A stretch of DNA of 32,331 bases from Candidatus Methanoperedens sp. GTDB lineage: Archaea > Halobacteriota > Methanosarcinia > Methanosarcinales > Methanoperedenaceae. The stretch spans positions 1 through 32,331 of the forward strand of contig JAPZAV010000020.1 in assembly GCA_027460465.1 (NCBI GenBank), in the 5' to 3' direction. Below, in pieces: positions 785 through 31,990 of the stretch. The notes under the pieces are model-generated. The model did no database searches. It was not told the origin of the DNA and saw only the letters and a list, made by a program, of their open reading frames with translations. Position 1 is the stretch's first letter; each line of letters opens with the position of its first letter. The position numbers and the translations under genes were made by a program.

Positions 785-1228
785 TTATCTTACATTCCCT
801 TTTACCAGAGTTGCTACTTTCCTTCCGAACTGCCTGCACCTCTCAAGTCCAGCCTCATCAGGTTTTTCCTTTATAAGAAGCCCGTCCACGGTCTTCATCC
901 CGTAACCCTTCAGCCTGTTCGTTATCAGATCCACAACTTCTGGAGACCATCCGTACGAACAAAAAGCAGCTCCGACTTTGTCCTTCAGTTCCAGCCCTTT
1001 CATCTTCTCAATAAAGACCTCAAGCGCGGGCATGATCTCATGATGGTAAGTCCCTGAACCAAGAACCAGTCCATCGATGTCATTGATCATTTCGAGTTTA
1101 GCTTCATGGACGTGAGATACCATGACCTCCATACCCTCTGCCCTCACTCCATCGGCTATCGCACCTGACATGAGTTCTGTATTGTGCGTCGCAGAATCGT
1201 ATATTATCACCACTTTTGCCATATGCAT
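785..1228 (-). CDS. Flavodoxin (FprA-type flavodoxin domain)
   Basis: This is a single flavodoxin domain of about 147 residues, resembling the C-terminal half of FprA flavoproteins. Visible features are VVIIYDSATHNTE (the FMN phosphate loop), GSGTYHHEIMP, and CSYGWSPE near the isoalloxazine site. It is an FMN one-electron carrier of the cytoplasm. It is the last gene of the operon, 9 nt after the IscU-flavoprotein gene. GTG 1231, ATG 1228 and ATG 1222 are all possible starts. GAGGAG at 1239-1234 is best placed for ATG 1228. Context suggests it passes electrons to or from the neighbouring flavoprotein; this is inference. Confidence 0.85.
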   Translation of the reverse strand: MHMAKVVIIYDSATHNTELMSGAIADGVRAEGMEVMVSHVHEAKLEMINDIDGLVLGSGTYHHEIMPALEVFIEKMKGLELKDKVGAAFCSYGWSPEVVDLITNRLKGYGMKTVDGLLIKEKPDEAGLERCRQFGRKVATLVKGNVR

Positions 1229-1237
1229 CACTTCTCC

Positions 1238-2572
1238 TCACAGCCAATAAGGTTTTCGAAGCTGTGTATATGCATTATGCGCCACGATGAGACCGTGAGC
1301 TATTGCCACAACTGTGAACTGCACCTCTGACGCCACATCCCCGATCGCATAGATGCCATCCATGCTTGTCTTCTGGGATCTATCTGTCTTGATGTACCCC
1401 TTTTCCGTCAGCTCGATCCCGAGCTTCTGAAAGATCTCGGTGTTCGGGGTCAGCCCCACCGCAAGGACGATTGCATCCACGGTCATCTGGAGCTGTTCAT
1501 CCTCTTTTATGTTCCGCATAACAGCTCTCTCTACCTTTTCCGTCCCTGCTATCTCAAGAAGTTCGGTATTATACAGGATTTTCACCTTATCCAGTGTTTT
1601 CAGATGCTCGATCTTATGCGGCACTGCACTCAACTCATCGCGCCTGTGCGCAATTGTGATGAGATCTGCAGTATCTGCAATGCTCAGTGCGGCATCCACA
1701 GCAGAGTTCCCGCCTCCTATGATGAGGACGCGCTTTCCATGGAATTCCTCAGGGTTTCTTACAAGATAATACACTCCTCTACCGTTCTTGCTGAACTTCT
1801 CTTCTCCCTTGACACCTGCCTGTGAAGGAGAAGTGCCTGTTGCTATTACCACGATCCTTCCCCTGTACTCTCCATCCTCTGTAATAACTTTATTATCCTG
1901 TGTGATCTCGCTCACACGTTCCTTCTTAAGATCCACTTTTAACCTCTTTGCATCATTCAACCATGTATCTATCAAATCCTGGCATGTTGTTTTTTCGCAT
2001 AATCCAGGAAAGTTCTCTATCATCTTGGTCGGACAGAGCCATGAGAGAATCCCTCCCCAGCTGGAGGCTTCAAAGATGGCAGTCTTGAGTCCCCTGTACG
2101 CGCACAATATTCCCGTACTCATACCCCCGGGTCCGCCGCCCACGATAACCACGTCATAATCATATTTTTCAGCTTCAAGTTTGGCCTTCTCTTCTTTTTT
2201 GGTCATGTAATCCTGGATCGCTGCATGAAGAGCGTCTGCGGCAAGGTTGGAGCAGTGCATCTTTATTGGAGGCAAACCTCCGAGTTCGTCTGCCACGTCC
2301 CCACGCGTGATTTTAAGAGCTTCCTCAAGAGTTTTTCCTTTTGCCATTTCCGTGATCATGCTGCTTGTTGCGATCGCAGAGCCGCACCCGAAGGTCTTGA
2401 ATTTCACATCCTTCAGTACATTGCCCTCGACCTTTATCTGGATCTCCATAAGGTCTCCGCAGACCGGGTTCCCGACCCTTCCTGTTCCATCAGCTTCCTT
2501 GATCTCCCCGACATTTCGAGGGTTCCTGAAATGTTCCATCACTTTTTCTGAATATTCGAATTGTTCATCCAT
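1238..2572 (-). CDS. IscU scaffold fused to a TrxR-like flavoprotein lacking CxxC
   Basis: Numbering follows the longer form that begins at GTG 2581. Residues 10-127 are an IscU/NifU-N scaffold with its three cluster-binding cysteines: C41 (NPVCGD), C66 (FGCGSA) and C110 (MHCSN). After a charged linker, residues 142-447 form a thioredoxin-reductase-like flavoprotein. It has the FAD loop GGGPGG (148-153), ATGT, the NAD(P)H loop GGGNSA (289-294) with HRR (312-314), and a C-terminal GDV FAD motif. The redox CxxC that thioredoxin reductase carries just before the second nucleotide loop is absent; that stretch (268-284) has no Cys. Cys183, Cys195 and Cys200 follow the GG motif near the flavin. The family without CxxC includes ferredoxin-NADP reductases, so reduction of the nascent cluster or of a small carrier is likely. 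ATG 2572 is chosen because AGGTG lies 6 nt upstream. Confidence 0.9.
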   Translation of the reverse strand: MDEQFEYSEKVMEHFRNPRNVGEIKEADGTGRVGNPVCGDLMEIQIKVEGNVLKDVKFKTFGCGSAIATSSMITEMAKGKTLEEALKITRGDVADELGGLPPIKMHCSNLAADALHAAIQDYMTKKEEKAKLEAEKYDYDVVIVGGGPGGMSTGILCAYRGLKTAIFEASSWGGILSWLCPTKMIENFPGLCEKTTCQDLIDTWLNDAKRLKVDLKKERVSEITQDNKVITEDGEYRGRIVVIATGTSPSQAGVKGEEKFSKNGRGVYYLVRNPEEFHGKRVLIIGGGNSAVDAALSIADTADLITIAHRRDELSAVPHKIEHLKTLDKVKILYNTELLEIAGTEKVERAVMRNIKEDEQLQMTVDAIVLAVGLTPNTEIFQKLGIELTEKGYIKTDRSQKTSMDGIYAIGDVASEVQFTVVAIAHGLIVAHNAYTQLRKPYWL

Positions 2573-2581
2573 TTTCTTCAC

Positions 2582-3745
2582 CTATTTTTTCGGATAAAGA
2601 GGCGATAATGCCCTCAGCCTGGATACAACCTCTGGTACTGATTCGATAACATGATCAACATCTTCATCTGTGCTGGATTTGCCAAGCGTGAGCAGAAGTG
2701 AGCCGTGCGCCTCTTCATGCCTCAATCCCATTGCTATGAGCACATGCGAGGGCTCAAGGGTTTTTGTTGAGCATGCAGAGCCTGTGCTCGCAGTTATCCC
2801 CATATCATTTAACTGCAGTATGATGCTCTCCCCTTCGATGAAGCTGAATCTGAAACTTGCATTGTTGGGCAGCCGCTTTGTCCTGTGACCCGTGAGATAG
2901 GAATATTCTATTTTCAAGAGATTATCGATCAGCCTGTCGCGCAGTCTGATGAGGTGCGCACCTTCATCCACCATCTCTTTCCGGGCGAGTTCTGCAGCTT
3001 TGCCCATACCCACTATGAAAGGAATATTCTCAGAGCCGCTTCTCATCCCGAATTCCTGCCCTCCTCCCAGCATAAAAGGCATGATCCTGACGCCCTGCTT
3101 AATATAAAGTGCTCCCGCACCCTTTGGACCACCCATATCATTGGAGGAAATGGAAAGAAGATCTATATGCTCATCTTCCACATTGACAGGTACTTTTCCG
3201 ACGGCAGCTGTCCCATCCACATGGAACAGGATCTTCTTATCTGAGGCGATCTCGCCTATCTCCTTTATCGGCTGCACGGTTCCCACTTCCCCATTCGCGT
3301 ACATAACAGAGATCAGAATGGTTTTGTCTGTTATTGTATTTTTTATTTGCTCTGCACTGACAAGACCGTCCCTGTCCACAGGTATGTGTGTGATCTCAAA
3401 ACCGCTTTTCTGCAGGTCCTTCAGGGGATTCATCACTGACATATGCTCCACAGAAGTTGTTATGATGTGATTACCCTTATCCTTGTACCGCATCGCTGCA
3501 CCGCGAAGCGCCAGATTGTTCGACTCGGTGGCACCTGACGTGAATATGATGCTTTTCGGGCCTGGAGCGTCCACCAGGTCTGCAACATGCCCCCGTGCTG
3601 CTTCAAGTTCCCTTCTGGCTTTTCTTCCGGCCGAATGTAAGGAGGAGGGATTCCCGATTTCCTTATCAAAATATGGCATCATCGCTTCAATCACCCTCGC
3701 ATCCACAGGTGATGCAGAGCCGTGATCCATGTAAACCTGCCTCAT
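2582..3745 (-). CDS. NifS/IscS-like protein without the PLP lysine
   Basis: This is a fold-type I aminotransferase relative of the NifS/IscS class, about 387 residues from ATG 3745. That start has AGAGG 5 nt upstream and gives MRQVYMDHGSASP, the usual family N-terminus. Conserved parts include SGATESNN, the SVEHMSV histidine, HVD, GGPKGAGALY, RSGSEN and the cysteine loop STGSACSTK. At the site where active enzymes have His-Lys before the GPKG motif, the codons read AAT GAT (Asn-Asp), so the lysine that forms the Schiff base is missing. The PLP-contacting Gln after HVD is Ala, and the substrate Arg of the SIRFSLG motif is Leu. Archaeoglobus fulgidus IscS is known to have Asp at this lysine position. 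It probably supports Fe-S assembly as a structural or cluster-binding partner of IscU rather than as an ordinary desulfurase. Confidence 0.88.
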   Translation of the reverse strand: MRQVYMDHGSASPVDARVIEAMMPYFDKEIGNPSSLHSAGRKARRELEAARGHVADLVDAPGPKSIIFTSGATESNNLALRGAAMRYKDKGNHIITTSVEHMSVMNPLKDLQKSGFEITHIPVDRDGLVSAEQIKNTITDKTILISVMYANGEVGTVQPIKEIGEIASDKKILFHVDGTAAVGKVPVNVEDEHIDLLSISSNDMGGPKGAGALYIKQGVRIMPFMLGGGQEFGMRSGSENIPFIVGMGKAAELARKEMVDEGAHLIRLRDRLIDNLLKIEYSYLTGHRTKRLPNNASFRFSFIEGESIILQLNDMGITASTGSACSTKTLEPSHVLIAMGLRHEEAHGSLLLTLGKSSTDEDVDHVIESVPEVVSRLRALSPLYPKK

Positions 3746-3755
3746 TTTTTCCTCT

Positions 3756-3917
3756 TTAAATGCGTCTGTCTCTGCCTTCAGGTCCTTCACATTCAGGTAT
3801 GTAGCATGTGGCATCGATAAAAGCGCATGCTTCTTTGCACGAAGGACATCTTTCAGGCGGTATTGGTCCGCCCTCGAACTGATACCCGCACATCGAACAT
3901 TTCCATTGAATCTTCAT
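3756..3917 (-). CDS. Small rubredoxin-like iron protein
   Basis: This is a 53-residue protein from ATG 3917 to TAA 3756, with a GAGAAG ribosome site upstream. It carries WKCSMCGYQFEG and ERCPSCKEAC, giving the two CxxC knuckles (C7/C10 and C24/C27) of a rubredoxin-type Fe(SCys)4 site. Three further cysteines (C31, C38, C43) lie in a DATCYIPEC tail of the type seen in small archaeal rubredoxin-like proteins. It starts 8 nt after the DsrE-like stop and ends 10 nt before the NifS-like start, so it belongs to the operon. A role as one-electron carrier for the neighbouring flavoproteins is inferred. Confidence 0.85.
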   Translation of the reverse strand: MKIQWKCSMCGYQFEGGPIPPERCPSCKEACAFIDATCYIPECEGPEGRDRRI

Positions 3918-3925
3918 AACTTCTC

Positions 3926-4285
3926 TTAAAACCACATGGTTCCGTCTGCATCAAGTACAAGATCATTGAGCGTTGCTGCCCCGACTATCTCAGCTGTCTG
4001 GACAAAATCTCCTTTTGCAAGATCGATGAGCTGACAGCTCTGTTCGCAGACCATGAGTTTCACTCCCGCTTTTACTGCCTGATCCATTATTTCTTTTAAT
4101 GATGGAAAATTTCCCATCTTTATTTTTTCAGCGTTCCCTTTTTTCACCACTGTAATTCCCATTCCAAGGAAATATACGATTGCATCTATTCCCATTGCTT
4201 TTGCGGTCTGTGCCAGGATAAATGGCGAATACAGACGTTCCGGTGTATTTATTCCACTCGTTTGCACATAAAGTAACGTTGCCAT
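3926..4285 (-). CDS. DsrE/DsrF-like sulfur-carrier family protein
   Basis: This is a 119-residue protein with a DsrE-type alpha/beta fold: an N-terminal MATLLYVQTS strand, an FGMGI-like turn (FLGMGIT), and the conserved cysteine region VCEQSCQLI (C80 and C84). DsrE/TusD relatives pass persulfide sulfur between proteins on a conserved cysteine. Here it is the first gene of the operon, with GGAGG just upstream of the ATG. That position suggests it supplies or receives sulfur for the rubredoxin/IscS-like/IscU proteins downstream. Direct evidence for the sulfur partner is lacking. Confidence 0.82.
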   Translation of the reverse strand: MATLLYVQTSGINTPERLYSPFILAQTAKAMGIDAIVYFLGMGITVVKKGNAEKIKMGNFPSLKEIMDQAVKAGVKLMVCEQSCQLIDLAKGDFVQTAEIVGAATLNDLVLDADGTMWF

Positions 4286-4452
4286 GCGGCCTCCATTGTA
4301 TTATTAGGGCTTATTCCAATATAAAGCATGGTCATTGGATAAATATTATTCCAGATTCAGTTCTATTTCACTTGATTTATAAGTTTCTTAGAAATCACCA
4401 TCTGGAGCATACTGTTATAAATCAATATGCTTCGCCATATGTTTTTCAGTTA

Positions 4453-4463
4453 AATTTATATAC
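4453..4463 (+). promoter_or_regulatory. TATA-like box for MC1
   Basis: An aatttatatac stretch lies in the AT-rich gap between the divergent DsrE-like operon and MC1. It predicts a start near 4486 and a leader of about 30 nt before ATG 4517. The 230-nt gap 4286-4516 must also hold the promoter of the minus-strand operon, which is not clearly resolved. Confidence 0.5.
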
Positions 4464-4516
4464 TATTATGAGAAATTAAAATACGAGACAACGAATCGTT
4501 GTCGGGGTATCAAAAT

Positions 4517-6802: not shown

Positions 6803-7936
6803 TCAATTTTCGTTCTTTTCAATTTCTGGTTGATCGTACTTTACCTCTTCTTTCCTGGTTGAGATTGCACTCATTTTATCCAGATCATCTATTCCAGATA
6901 TGTTTTCAAATTCTCTGCTGAGATTATCATTTCCGAGCTTTTCTTTTGAGAATATCGCGATTTCTTTTGCAAATTTGTTATAATTCTTCGCATCTCTTTG
7001 AGCCTGTTTCAGGGCAGCTGCATACTCTTCTACAGTGATATTACCTGCTTCAAACTCTAGCCTTAAAGAATCAAGTGTAGTCTGAAGCCTGTTCATATCT
7101 TCTTTCATGCTTTCAAGCTTCTTTGCAATCAATTCTTCAGTGTCTTCATTTTTTGATACATGGTATTCGAACAAGCGTATTCGGATCTCAGTTATGTGGT
7201 CCTCAAGTCCGTTATCTAAAATATCGAAGATGCTGCCACCGTTCCCCTCTATATTGTTCACGTTCACATACCATCTGAATTCAATCTGCGAATCTGAATC
7301 ACTGCCTTTGAAGATCATAGTATGGAGCCCGGTGTTTTTTCCATCCCAGATCTGGGTGTAAGAAGAGGTATTTCCGCTTGTGACACCAACCACTGGCGAG
7401 CCATCTAATGTCCATGAATTCATCATCATCCCTCTCGACATTGTGACCGAATATTCTATGCTCCTGCTCTGTGTGTTATCTATATAAATGGTGTCAATAA
7501 CCTGCGGGTACCATGATAGAATCGTTGCTCTTTTCTTTTCTGGATTTTTGTCTTGCACTGAAATGTGCCATGTTAACGTCTGCGTATGCCCATTGATGTT
7601 TGAGCCATTGACAGAAACACTGTGCATCCCTTGATCATCGAAGCTATAAGTTTGCGTTTCTGAATTAACTTTACTGGAATGACCATTCATTATCCAGAGC
7701 CATGCAGTTATGGGTTGGTCAGAAGTTACATTGAACCTTACTATATCTCCTGTATTCACAGAAAAAGTCAAAGCATCATCGTTGGTCTTGCTATTGCTCC
7801 AGGTGACTATCTTTGGAGGTTTTTCCTCTATCCCGGGAATATCAGCGTGCTTCCAGAACTCAAACATGGAGGCGCTGCCGGAAATAGACAGTACAATCGT
7901 CAAAAGAAATATCGCGATTATCGCGAGAGACTTCAT
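6803..7936 (-). CDS. Exported Ig-like/PKD protein with coiled-coil tail
   Basis: This is a 377-residue protein with a clear signal peptide (MKSLAIIAIFLLTIVLS, about 1-23). Two Ig-like or PKD-like beta domains follow (about 42-127 and 135-228), each ending in a TWHISV or RWYVNV strand. A charged helical segment with coiled-coil character runs from about 245 to 345, and an acidic C-terminus closes it. There is no second hydrophobic helix, so it is probably secreted or bound at the surface. Its place upstream of the membrane-tethered regulator suggests that it binds or modulates that sensor. No precise family is recognised. Confidence 0.7.
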   Translation of the reverse strand: MKSLAIIAIFLLTIVLSISGSASMFEFWKHADIPGIEEKPPKIVTWSNSKTNDDALTFSVNTGDIVRFNVTSDQPITAWLWIMNGHSSKVNSETQTYSFDDQGMHSVSVNGSNINGHTQTLTWHISVQDKNPEKKRATILSWYPQVIDTIYIDNTQSRSIEYSVTMSRGMMMNSWTLDGSPVVGVTSGNTSSYTQIWDGKNTGLHTMIFKGSDSDSQIEFRWYVNVNNIEGNGGSIFDILDNGLEDHITEIRIRLFEYHVSKNEDTEELIAKKLESMKEDMNRLQTTLDSLRLEFEAGNITVEEYAAALKQAQRDAKNYNKFAKEIAIFSKEKLGNDNLSREFENISGIDDLDKMSAISTRKEEVKYDQPEIEKNEN

Positions 7937-27813: not shown

Positions 27814-29757
27814 TCAAACCATTGAGCTGAATAAAAGTCTTGACATTATCGTTGTTATTGTGAACACAAGAATCGATATCGGTAGCATCTGTCCGATATC
27901 GTACATGAGTTGAGGTCTGTCCCCGCCGTATTCTATTCCTCCAGCAAACCTCGCAAGGATTATCACCAGAATGACCATATAGACCCCCACGACCAGCAGA
28001 AATACATCAGGCGGTATGCTCTGTGTCGTAGAAGTGCCTGCCTGTTTCATTATGCCCCCGATATTGAACTCTTCGGGCAAAAGTTTTGTTTCTTTTGAGA
28101 TATTGATCAGGATCTTCTGAATCACCTCTGATAATGCAAGGGTAACTCCACCTATCAGGGGAGCAAAGATCATTGCGGTTGACCTCATTGTAGAGGTCAC
28201 ATCGTATAGAGACCTTTTGATATTCGCCTCCACTTCCTGCAGCTCTTTCAGGTGCTCTGCAAGCTTTATTATCGCCATCCCGGAAGCCTCATGGCTCTTA
28301 TGAACGCTCTCTGTGAAAAGCCTCATGGTGGTATGCACCCTTTCAGAATAAACATCTTTGAATGCACCGAATTCCTCATGGAAGATAGCACCGTGAAGGG
28401 TTGTTCTTATGCTTGTGAGATTTTTTGCCACATCTGCAAAGACCTCCCCTATCTTTGAACCTTTCATTGTATGGGAGGTATGTGAAAAAGCAACCTCTGC
28501 AGACCTGCCTTCCGAGATCCTTCTTCCAAGGATGAAGAGGGCATCTGAGAACTCATATTCTATCTGCTTTATCCCATCGCGTATCTTCTTGTAGGGTGCA
28601 TATACTCCTAGACAGAATATCGTGATCATGGCTGTTATTGCCCATACGACAGGAAAAGTCGGTGGTATCAGTCCTGACATGGCTTCGCGCGAGATTATGC
28701 CCAGGGGATTTCCTAAATAGAGGAGGATATAGCCTGAGAAACCGATAATTATGCCCGAGATGACTATCAAAATGATAATTATCTTTCTTTTAGTCCCTGT
28801 ATTTGAGAGTTCAGGATGTTTATCGGATATAGTGGGAGGGGCAAAGGCTGCAGGTCTCTGGAGCAGAATATACTCGGAATACAGGAAAGTGACAAGTGGA
28901 AGCAGGATATCGTAAACCAGAAACAACGTTAGTGTGTCTATTCTCACACCCACTATAGTAACTGCAGGGACAAGTGCCACAAGCGCAAGAGGAATCAGTA
29001 TAAATATGGAGTAAAGGACGTATGTGGGAGTCTTGAGCTTTGCAGCAAACCCATCCATCATTGTCTTTGTTCCTTCAAGGACGATATCGAGTGATTTGTT
29101 CAATGTCATTATTCTCTGCGCCTCATCAGGCTCGTTTACCGAGCTCTTTACGAGATGCAGTGAACGCTTGAAATACTCGCTATTCCTGCCCCACAGGTTC
29201 GCGAATGTGATAAGCGCATCATCCATGCTGCTGTACACACGGATATGTATGTCCCAGATAAGCTTTTTCAGGTCTCTGGCTAATGGTCTGGTAGAATTTT
29301 CTGCAGCAAAGCTGATCGCCCTTTCCATATTCGGCACTAATTTCATGGCCATCACAATATAGCTCTGGATCTCAGGGATATCTCCAAGTGAGCGTATCTT
29401 CATGAATCTTGCATGGATCTTTGGATATTCGCTGAGATATACCATTATTGCAAGAGGCACAAAACCGGTGCATACAGCTGCAACCAATAAGGAAGATCTC
29501 TCGTATCTCGCCACACTGAAAAGCACTGCATCAAGACCGAGCAGGAGAACCAGGGATACAAAGAACCCTGAATAAGCTAAAACCTGTATTTCCCAGGGTT
29601 CTATGTCAAAGCCTGTAAAGTTCAGGGCATCCAGAAGTTCTCTGCTTACTGTTTTTTCGCTTTTTCTCTTGTGTTTCTCTATGTTGCCAGCAAGCCAGCT
29701 GAAATTTTTTACTGAACTCTTGCATGCGCTGCAGTACCAGTTTTGATATTCGCTCAT
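27814..29757 (-). CDS. TadC/GspF-like pilus membrane platform protein
   Basis: This is a 647-residue membrane protein of the archaeal type II secretion F/TadC class. Two T2SSF-type cytoplasmic parts (about 110-230 and 395-540) alternate with hydrophobic segments at about 55-110, 240-300, 325-390, 555-575, 590-615 and 625-645. This gives the duplicated form usual for archaeal pilus and archaellum platforms. The N-terminus begins with a CSAC pair (C9, C12). It lies 4 nt after its ATPase gene. Together they would form the motor of a type IV pilus-like structure; the pilins are not in the window. Confidence 0.88.
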   Translation of the reverse strand: MSEYQNWYCSACKSSVKNFSWLAGNIEKHKRKSEKTVSRELLDALNFTGFDIEPWEIQVLAYSGFFVSLVLLLGLDAVLFSVARYERSSLLVAAVCTGFVPLAIMVYLSEYPKIHARFMKIRSLGDIPEIQSYIVMAMKLVPNMERAISFAAENSTRPLARDLKKLIWDIHIRVYSSMDDALITFANLWGRNSEYFKRSLHLVKSSVNEPDEAQRIMTLNKSLDIVLEGTKTMMDGFAAKLKTPTYVLYSIFILIPLALVALVPAVTIVGVRIDTLTLFLVYDILLPLVTFLYSEYILLQRPAAFAPPTISDKHPELSNTGTKRKIIIILIVISGIIIGFSGYILLYLGNPLGIISREAMSGLIPPTFPVVWAITAMITIFCLGVYAPYKKIRDGIKQIEYEFSDALFILGRRISEGRSAEVAFSHTSHTMKGSKIGEVFADVAKNLTSIRTTLHGAIFHEEFGAFKDVYSERVHTTMRLFTESVHKSHEASGMAIIKLAEHLKELQEVEANIKRSLYDVTSTMRSTAMIFAPLIGGVTLALSEVIQKILINISKETKLLPEEFNIGGIMKQAGTSTTQSIPPDVFLLVVGVYMVILVIILARFAGGIEYGGDRPQLMYDIGQMLPISILVFTITTIMSRLLFSSMV

Positions 29758-29761
29758 GATC

Positions 29762-31990
29762 CTACTTGTTCTTTTCTACAAAATCCCCGTACCACTCGAT
29801 CCACTTATCATACACTTCCTGATACTTTACCTTTCCATTCTCATCCTGCTCCTTATCCAGGTAATACCAGAACATGTTGTTTGCTTTGCCCACCATGTCA
29901 ACTTCCATAAATGCAGGATGCTCCTTACCTGCATTGGCAATGGTCTCTTTGATCATTGCCCTCATCTTGATATTGAGAGATGCTTCATCCACGTCCAGCC
30001 CCCATTTTTGGGCAATTCTATTCACAAGCTCTGACTGCCCCTTATCCAGTATATCAGTGGGCACAATTCTATCCTGCGCGGCATCAAAAACCATAATTTC
30101 GTTGAAGATATCATCTGCACCTGGACGCTCCCCCCAGTCACCTCCAGTTACCTCTGCTATCTGCACCACTCTTTTTTTCTTTCTCATCGTGCCGCTGATC
30201 CTCACGTTCTGGCAGATGACCACAGCATCGGTTGCTCTAAAAGATGCAACGGGAACGCCAAGACTGTTCACGATGCGCTCAAAAACAGCTCTCGTGGAAG
30301 CGCCGTGTATCGTTCCTACCACTGAGTTACCTGCAGTGCCGACCTGCATGGCTTCGTACAGAACTTTCACTTCAGGACCTCTTACCTCGCCCAGGACCAG
30401 GGTTGAGTTCCCCATTCTGAGAGCGGCTCTGAGAGCGGTTTCTGGGTTGATCTCAGCCCCGATCCCTCCTACAGAGGATTTAGTCCTCATCCCCTGGATC
30501 TTCCAGCCAAGCTTCTGAAGCGTCTCTATCGGCAACTCAGGAGTATCTTCGATCGTGAGTATCCTGTATTTCTGGGGCATTTCAAGCAGCATGGCAGCAA
30601 GTAAAGAGGTCTTACCTGAACCTACCCCGCCTGAAACCAGAATAGAAGAATGACCATCTATCAGAAAACTCAGCAGTCCCGCAGCCAGAGGTGAGATCGA
30701 CCCTGCATTGATGAGCTTCGGGAGAGTCCATGGATTCCTGGCATGCTTTCTGAAGGCATATGCCATCCCTCCTGCCGCCAGAGGGTCGCCTATGACAGAG
30801 ACGCGGGTCTTGAACTCAGCGAGGTCCATATCAAGAACAGGATTTGCCTCACCAAATGGTCTCCCGCTGATCGCCCTGAACCGTGTTATCATGGAGTCAA
30901 TATCGTCCTGGGATAAGTAGATGTTGGAGAGGCATTCTTCCCCATCCACAACTATGTGTATCGGATTTATATCAGAAGGCGCGTTCACATAGACATCTGT
31001 GACGCGCTCATCAGAGAGCACATCCTCCAGGATCCCAAGCCCTGTGGTATATTTTGCGATTATATCTGAGAAGTTATTTATATCATCTGGTGCAAGCTTT
31101 ACATTTCTCTCCCGCGCCTCCTCTGAAAGCAATCTTTTCCCGAGCCTTCTGAAATATTCTCTTGAATTGGCAGGGTCAGAGAAATTCAGGTCTTTCGGTC
31201 TATGCCTCATCAGCCTTTTCCTTACTGCCTCTATGATCTCCAGCTCTTTCGGGCGCATGTTGTATTCCACTGGTATTGCAAAGTACAGGCTTTCAGGTCT
31301 ATCCGTGAGTTCGTAGATCGTTATCTGCATGACCCTGCCGCCCGGTCTTTGCACCTCGTATCCCTCAAGGAATTTTGTGTTCTGGGGCGGAGAGGTATAT
31401 ATCACGGAAGAAGAAAAAGGCGGTCTTACAAGTGATTTTATGACCTTTTCATAATAAAATGAAGCAGGTCTGTGGGTTTTGATCCGACCAGAAAGTTCAG
31501 GGACGCAGTCTGCCATTTTTTCCAGTATCTGGATGAAATCAGTCCTCCCTGAGTTCGGATCCGAAGATTCCACCGGATTCTGTGATGTTTCTATTTTTGC
31601 TCTGAGGTCAAGATAAGCCTGCACAGGGTCTGATATGCTTTTACTTATGATCGATACTATCTCTTCCTTCCACTGAGCGCGATTTCCTTCTTCCTCTCTG
31701 CAGATCTCTGCATCACTGTATACAGCGATGCTGTCTATGAACCTTGCGAGCAGATACAGAAACTCAAGGTTCTCCATTTCGTAATCTCTTTCGTATAAAT
31801 GGGACAGAACAAGCCGATCCACAACAGGTTCAGAGATCAGGATCTGGAAAATATTTTCCCTGCACTTCGGATCTGTGATTGTTGAACTGCCCATTCTGCA
31901 GTTCCTGCAATCAAGGATTATGGCTCTCTGCGTCTTCGATATTCGTGCCTTATATGAACAGATATCTCTTGTTTCTTTTTTTCTCCCCAT
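29762..31990 (-). CDS. TadA/GspE-like pilus assembly ATPase
   Basis: This is a 742-residue secretion ATPase of the archaeal type II/IV family. The N-terminal 50 residues carry C11, C28, C31 and C43, a likely metal knuckle not typical of bacterial GspE. Residues about 300-420 are the N-domain (SDERVTDVYVNAP and following). The P-loop is GGVGSGKT (454-461), the Asp box is ILTIEDTPEL (477-486), Walker B is LVLGEVRG (531-538), and the His box is GTIHGAS (559-565). It powers assembly of a pilus or pseudopilus. It is the first gene of the pair, with no strong ribosome site before ATG 31990. Confidence 0.92.
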   Translation of the reverse strand: MGRKKETRDICSYKARISKTQRAIILDCRNCRMGSSTITDPKCRENIFQILISEPVVDRLVLSHLYERDYEMENLEFLYLLARFIDSIAVYSDAEICREEEGNRAQWKEEIVSIISKSISDPVQAYLDLRAKIETSQNPVESSDPNSGRTDFIQILEKMADCVPELSGRIKTHRPASFYYEKVIKSLVRPPFSSSVIYTSPPQNTKFLEGYEVQRPGGRVMQITIYELTDRPESLYFAIPVEYNMRPKELEIIEAVRKRLMRHRPKDLNFSDPANSREYFRRLGKRLLSEEARERNVKLAPDDINNFSDIIAKYTTGLGILEDVLSDERVTDVYVNAPSDINPIHIVVDGEECLSNIYLSQDDIDSMITRFRAISGRPFGEANPVLDMDLAEFKTRVSVIGDPLAAGGMAYAFRKHARNPWTLPKLINAGSISPLAAGLLSFLIDGHSSILVSGGVGSGKTSLLAAMLLEMPQKYRILTIEDTPELPIETLQKLGWKIQGMRTKSSVGGIGAEINPETALRAALRMGNSTLVLGEVRGPEVKVLYEAMQVGTAGNSVVGTIHGASTRAVFERIVNSLGVPVASFRATDAVVICQNVRISGTMRKKKRVVQIAEVTGGDWGERPGADDIFNEIMVFDAAQDRIVPTDILDKGQSELVNRIAQKWGLDVDEASLNIKMRAMIKETIANAGKEHPAFMEVDMVGKANNMFWYYLDKEQDENGKVKYQEVYDKWIEWYGDFVEKNK

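Follow-up and report, generated by a model that had tools for sequence, protein, structure and literature searches.

In IscS of E. coli, Lys206 holds PLP through a Schiff base with His205 as its neighbour, Gln183 and Asn155 lie near the O3' of PLP, and Arg354 binds the substrate carboxylate. The IscS of Archaeoglobus fulgidus (PDB 4eb5, 4eb7 and 4hvk) has an Asp, D199, at the position of the catalytic Lys. According to the passages of PMC7585200 and PMC9769115 that cite Marinoni 2012 and Pagnier 2015, this protein is without desulfurase activity and its Cys is a ligand to the IscU cluster; PMC9769115 describes a [2Fe-2S] cluster in the complex that is bound by Cys321 of IscS together with three Cys of IscU. 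A figure legend of the same paper shows PLP in complex 4EB5, in line with non-covalent binding. In Methanosarcina acetivorans, IscS1 (MA0808) also lacks the catalytic Lys and also adjoins IscU, and it has been cited as similar to A. fulgidus IscS, with the loop STGSACFS (PMC7585200). In mitochondria, FDXR and FDX2 give the electrons that reduce the persulfide on ISCU2 (PMC8617193). For the Fe-S clusters of anaerobic archaea, both cysteine and sulfide come into question as the source of sulfur.

A further Lys-less IscS-like gene lies in a genome of Candidatus Methanoperedens, within a stretch of 32,331 nucleotides that was analysed whole (the window). It is the third gene of a run read entirely from the minus strand, in the order DsrE-like, rubredoxin-like, IscS, IscU-reductase and flavodoxin:

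4286 to 4498, no strand assigned: intergenic region that separates the operon from a divergently read MC1 chromatin-protein gene, with TATA-like stretches read directly; putative promoter
3926 to 4285, minus strand: DsrE-like small protein, first gene of the operon (Pfam DsrE, 62.7 bits)
3756 to 3917, minus strand: rubredoxin-like protein of 53 residues between DsrE and IscS (RUBY_RBDX, 29.7 bits, cut-off 26.5)
2582 to 3745, minus strand: Lys-less IscS-like coding sequence of 387 residues, ATG at 3745 and stop at 2582, by translation and alignments
1238 to 2581, minus strand: IscU-reductase fusion (Pfam NifU_N, 168 bits; Pyr_redox_2, 147 bits)
785 to 1231, minus strand: flavodoxin, last gene of the run (Pfam Flavodoxin_1, 58 bits)

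The first-pass annotation of this DNA had placed the IscS-like coding sequence exactly, leaving its strand unstated. A second in-frame ATG at 3814 overlaps the small gene upstream, and homologues begin at 3745. Homologues of the rubredoxin-like protein occur in many Methanoperedens loci, and the flavodoxin is adjacent in only some relatives. Elsewhere on the minus strand of the window, ORFs of 647 residues (27814-29757) and 377 residues (6803-7936) have no Pfam match, the former adjoining a T2SS/T4P-type ATPase gene at 29762-31990.

The IscS-like protein has the class V aminotransferase fold (Pfam Aminotran_5, 241 bits), and its translation contains the motif SISSNDMGGPKG. Its residues were mapped by pairwise alignment to E. 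coli IscS from MG1655:

3142 to 3140, minus strand: N202, codon AAT, aligned to E. coli His205
3139 to 3137, minus strand: D203, codon GAT, aligned to E. coli Lys206
3208 to 3206, minus strand: A180, aligned to E. coli Gln183
2773 to 2771, minus strand: C325 of the loop, aligned to E. coli Cys328 and kept
2695 to 2693, minus strand: L351, aligned to E. coli Arg354

The translation, the codons and the alignment thus bear out what had been read from the letters, namely Asn-Asp at the His-Lys site with GAT as the codon of the lost Lys, Ala for Gln, Leu for the substrate-carboxylate Arg, and a retained catalytic-loop Cys. A change beyond that list is Gly (G152) at E. coli Asn155; Thr76 (T73), His104 (H101), Asp180 (D177) and Ser203 (S200) are kept, and Thr243 is a Ser (S238). 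The protein is like the E. coli IscS and NifS desulfurases in its fold, its loop Cys, most of its PLP contacts and its adjacency to IscU, but unlike E. coli IscS in that Lys206, His205, Gln183, Asn155 and Arg354 are all replaced. Of the features that define a PLP-dependent cysteine desulfurase, the Lys of the internal aldimine (D203) and the Arg for the substrate carboxylate (L351) are absent and the catalytic Cys on a mobile loop (C325) is present, and the NCBIfam equivalog cut-offs are reached neither for IscS (436 vs 643.2 bits) nor for NifS (493 vs 530.75 bits). The Asn-Asp pair, the Ala for Gln and the hydrophobic residue for Arg are instead those of a Lys-less IscS of the A. fulgidus type. 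With A. fulgidus IscS it shares Asn-Asp, Gln to Ala, Arg to Leu, the loop Cys, an adjacent IscU, an upstream DsrE and membership of one clade; it differs in sequence (58% identity) and in having Gly where A. fulgidus keeps the equivalent of Asn155, and the A. fulgidus IscU, unlike that of Methanoperedens, is not fused to a reductase.

The predicted structure agrees with this assignment in that the best PDB match of the model is 4eb7_A, with 4eb7 and 4hvk on top (TM 0.93-0.95), the nearest solved proteins being 4eb5, the A. fulgidus IscS, and 4r5f, the D199K mutant of that protein. The model has a pLDDT of 90.9, and the only stretch below 50 is the Cys-bearing loop 324-330, as would be expected of a mobile loop. 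When 47 sequences of the Asn-Asp (ND) type were compared with 27 Lys-containing ones, the strict differences fell at positions 149, 152, 176, 180, 202 and 203, plus 351, all seven at or adjoining the PLP/substrate site; T329, beside the loop Cys, differs too. At position 351 all Lys types have Arg, whereas 46 of the 47 ND proteins have a Leu, Val, Met or Ala; the equivalent of Gln183 is lost in 47/47 ND proteins. All 47 keep the residues that match Thr76, His104 and Asp180, 44 keep the one that matches Ser203, and position 243 is Thr or Ser in all 47. No replacement Lys, which the first-pass annotation had named as an observation that would undo its reading, was found at the PLP site when the conserved lysines of these two sets were checked. 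Only two lysines are conserved in the ND type: K109, which roughly every second normal enzyme has as well, and K328, which follows the loop Cys by three residues. Since other PLP-pocket residues persist, the pocket is altered, not lost: as judged from the alignment, it is changed selectively, at the covalent bond, in the side chains that approach the hydroxyl of PLP and at the substrate anchor, and is not abandoned. Hence, of the earlier reading, a changed role with the Cys kept stands, whereas the idea that the cofactor site as a whole is lost does not, given that the equivalents of Thr76, His104, Asp180, Ser203 and Thr243 are 94-100% kept.

The spread of this type was followed with a subfamily profile scan over one genome per species, which gave 339 relatives; the loci were counted among the best 80 of these. 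Among these best 80 of 339, Asn stands at the 202 position in 80/80 loci, Asp at the 203 position in 78/80 (with one Gly and one Asn), Lys in 0/80, and the equivalent of loop Cys325 in 80/80. The hosts of the same best 80 of 339 are Methanoperedens, ANME-2, other Methanosarcinales, Bathyarchaeota, Hadarchaeota, Archaeoglobi, Sifarchaeum and Borrarchaeum, with one Thermoplasmata MAG and one Actinomycetota MAG. The Actinomycetota MAG (L108) has an ND IscS with IscU, nested among archaeal sequences, by gene transfer or binning error. A tree of 85 rows unites the ND proteins in a single clade of 47 rows (support 100/99) that spans Methanoperedens, ANME-2, Archaeoglobi, Bathyarchaeota, Hadarchaeota and other groups and includes A. 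fulgidus IscS, so that the suggested likeness to that protein and the idea of an archaeal subfamily both held up. An ND codon motif was found in 27/295 genomes of one phylum-wide sample, one of the 27 being a chance match outside IscS, and a reversed control pattern gave no match. The ND gene has a dN/dS below about 0.13 (dN 0.07-0.20 vs a saturated dS of at least 1.1), and purifying selection on it equals in strength that on the Lys-containing paralogue. The ND family is old and archaeal, and the loss of the Lys is always kept. Two further IscS-like groups with changed active sites were seen in archaea outside the Methanosarcinales, one with Tyr-Lys and Pro for the stacking His (L160-L164), the other with His-Lys and with Asn replacing the stacking His as well as the PLP Asp (L154-L156).

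A second Lys-less lineage, HT, has His-Thr at the site, the loop STGSACFS and a retained Arg, and forms a separate clade, found in Methanosarcinaceae-like genomes (L183-L185). Its IscU is also extended, with another kind of extension than the Methanoperedens fusion. The STGSACFS motif suggests that MA0808 belongs to this lineage, and because the loop motif of M. acetivorans IscS1 equals that of a separate clade, its likeness to A. fulgidus IscS is probably convergent. The Methanoperedens protein was also considered as a member of the IscS1 type and rejected, as the HT clade stands apart in the tree. In the HT loci (L183-L185, L206 and L207), Asp replaces the PLP-stacking His and IscU has an extra C-terminal domain; at L207, Thi4-like and polyferredoxin genes lie near the HT-type IscS.

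The neighbourhood of the ND gene is conserved to differing degrees. Among the best 80 of 339 relatives, IscU lies downstream of the ND IscS in 72 of the 78 loci with enough sequence, and the Cys/Asp/Cys/His/Cys cluster site of IscU is kept in 72-73 of 73 relatives. DsrE lies upstream in 54/79 loci of the same best 80 of 339 (Methanoperedenaceae 21/23, ANME-2/Methanosarcinales 15/15, others 18/41), vs 0/25 contexts of Lys-containing or other-type IscS. Genome-wide, at E<=1e-10, DsrE was found in 23/33 ND carriers and 0/12 non-carriers. The loci in these linkage counts are related, so that the counts are not independent, and linkage is not interaction. In an A. fulgidus genome whose IscS is identical to the crystallised protein at 379/380 positions, both IscS copies stand directly after DsrE and before IscU. 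The small protein matches Pfam DsrE and has a conserved Cys80, as expected of the DsrE/DsrF-like family, this Cys being invariant in 55/55 linked homologues; the NCBIfam cut-off for the DsrE2 sulfur carrier is not reached (48 vs 210 bits). DsrE cannot be obligatory, since it is not adjacent in 25/79 loci (best 80 of 339) and about a third of the ND genomes tested, several of them incomplete MAGs, show no close DsrE. Literature searches on IscS with DsrE in archaea gave nothing relevant, the original A. fulgidus papers lying outside their reach. The A. fulgidus lesion was already known; the neighbourhood of the ND IscS seems to be undescribed. The IscU beside the ND IscS of Candidatus Sifarchaeum (L110, 4650-6248, plus strand) has an intein-like insertion exactly before a cluster-ligand Cys (GNPV | CVTPETL...HN | CGDLM).

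In Methanoperedens, the partner IscU is itself unusual. Residues 9-130 of the fusion are a full IscU (TIGR03419, above cut-off) with the C, D, C, H, C scaffold site kept, and residues of about 142-440 form a FAD/NAD(P) domain of the thioredoxin-reductase fold. This domain is like thioredoxin reductase and the ferredoxin-NADP reductases of the same fold in its overall shape and its FAD/NAD(P) motifs, but it is joined to IscU, and alignment with solved thioredoxin reductases places Cys-free residues where these have the CxxC. Because the CxxC is missing, the domain is by this defining feature not a thioredoxin reductase, and it does not reach the cut-off of TIGR01292 (227 vs 343 bits). It has instead a Cys (C183) in a three-residue insertion, invariant in 16 relatives. 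Among the best 80 of 339, the fusion is present in 35 Methanosarcinales loci (Methanoperedens and ANME-2) and in 0/41 others, and where an IscU adjoins a Lys-containing or other-type IscS (25 contexts), it is never fused to a reductase. The model of the fusion has a pTM of 0.51, low interdomain confidence and an unreliable loop at 176-195. No relevant report came up in literature searches for fusions of IscU or NifU with thioredoxin reductase. As the simplest inference from the gene fusion, the reductase domain would supply electrons to the IscU to which it is joined.

Some ND carriers have no other enzyme of this family. Five single-contig Archaeoglobaceae genomes have the ND type only, with no other IscS/SufS homologue at E<=1e-12, and therefore no cysteine desulfuration by the IscS/SufS family takes place there. 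A second IscS-type gene was likewise not found in 12/31 other ND genomes, several of which are MAGs of unknown completeness. In Methanoperedens genomes both types are common, and the Lys-containing IscS has its own standalone IscU elsewhere (L002); since this pair is kept, the Methanoperedens cell does not depend on the ND unit for its sulfur. A small HTH gene with a similar start (MKPHC/MRPPC...) adjoins both the Methanoperedens gene for the Lys-containing IscS and the Archaeoglobus ND iscSU (L002/L210, from the genome of the window, C153; also L212 and L214), pointing to a possible common regulator of Fe-S assembly.

From the lesion, the clade, its selection, the linkage and the fold, we infer a biochemical activity, a sulfur route and an electron route. 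The Methanoperedens protein is likely a non-desulfurase with the IscS fold, of the kind known from A. fulgidus, that serves only the adjacent IscU, as a cluster ligand, a sulfur relay or both. Without the Schiff-base Lys and the carboxylate Arg, normal removal of sulfur from cysteine would be impossible. An (IscS)2(IscU)2 complex probably still forms, and the ND IscS probably holds PLP without a covalent bond, in a structural capacity. Cys325 on its mobile loop would reach the site on IscU, where it could serve the cluster as a temporary ligand, passively take up sulfur and pass it on, or do both. The most likely source of this sulfur would be either free sulfide or the DsrE-like protein, a possible sulfur carrier, through a persulfide on its Cys80. 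The reductase domain of the IscU fusion in Methanoperedens and ANME-2 may give electrons on site, either reducing sulfane sulfur to sulfide or coupling clusters. The proposed electron source for persulfide reduction on IscU resembles that of the mitochondrial ISC core (NFS1-ISCU2 with FDX2/FDXR), which differs in having an active desulfurase and a separate ferredoxin and reductase rather than a flavoprotein covalently joined to IscU.

The two forms of this non-desulfurase role differ in what Cys325 does. It is quite possible, if short of an even chance, that the protein is purely a ligand donor, as the first-pass annotation had it, so that inorganic sulfide is the source, Cys325 only completes the IscU cluster, and DsrE and the reductase serve otherwise; the A. 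fulgidus complex of PMC9769115, in which Cys321 of IscS shares the cluster with three Cys of IscU, speaks for it, and the Methanoperedens pair keeps all the residues needed. However, a pure ligand role leaves unexplained both the clade-specific DsrE linkage (54/79 loci, best 80 of 339, vs 0/25) and the IscU-reductase fusion. A sulfur relay with the adjacent DsrE would fit the gene order at least as well, and the clade-specific linkage leans towards a relay, short of proof. We put forward, tentatively, a desulfurase-free ISC system in which DsrE carries sulfane sulfur to a Lys-less IscS and hands it to the loop Cys, this IscS being only a docking platform and relay, IscU assembles the cluster, and the fused reductase delivers electrons in Methanoperedens and ANME-2; in A. 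fulgidus the system would be the same but for the fusion.

Other readings fare worse. That the protein still works as a desulfurase in some uncommon way, with Asp203 or a different group acting for Lys or with turnover of non-covalent PLP, is in keeping with the retention of most PLP-pocket residues and with the title of PDB 4hvk, 'an unusual L-cysteine desulfurase', but it is very unlikely, as the substrate-carboxylate Arg is lost in 46/47 and Gln183 in 47/47 clade members, the Asp itself gives way to Gly or Asn in two loci (best 80 of 339), and a later A. fulgidus paper, by its title as cited in PMC7585200, reports no desulfurase activity. The common presence of both types in Methanoperedens genomes would suit a regulatory role, in which the protein is a pseudoenzyme partner of the active, Lys-containing enzyme of the same cell; yet each type there has its own adjacent IscU, the Archaeoglobaceae genomes have no Lys-containing partner and 12/31 other genomes show no second IscS-type gene, so that such pairing is very unlikely and, given the ND-only genomes, not general. 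An origin of the lesion in faulty sequencing or assembly, or in decay of the gene, has a negligible chance: nothing was found in its favour, and it was rejected because the lesion is common to 80 loci of different genomes, with the residues conserved in 78-80 of 80 (best 80 of 339), and dN/dS is low.

These results suggest that ND archaea assemble clusters at this unit without cysteine desulfuration. The Lys-less IscS of A. fulgidus, which looked like an isolated oddity, is now a member of an old, selected clade spread across several archaeal phyla; the DsrE-like protein is a specific candidate for a component that assembly in vitro has lacked, and the fusion of IscU to a reductase points to a specific electron donor.
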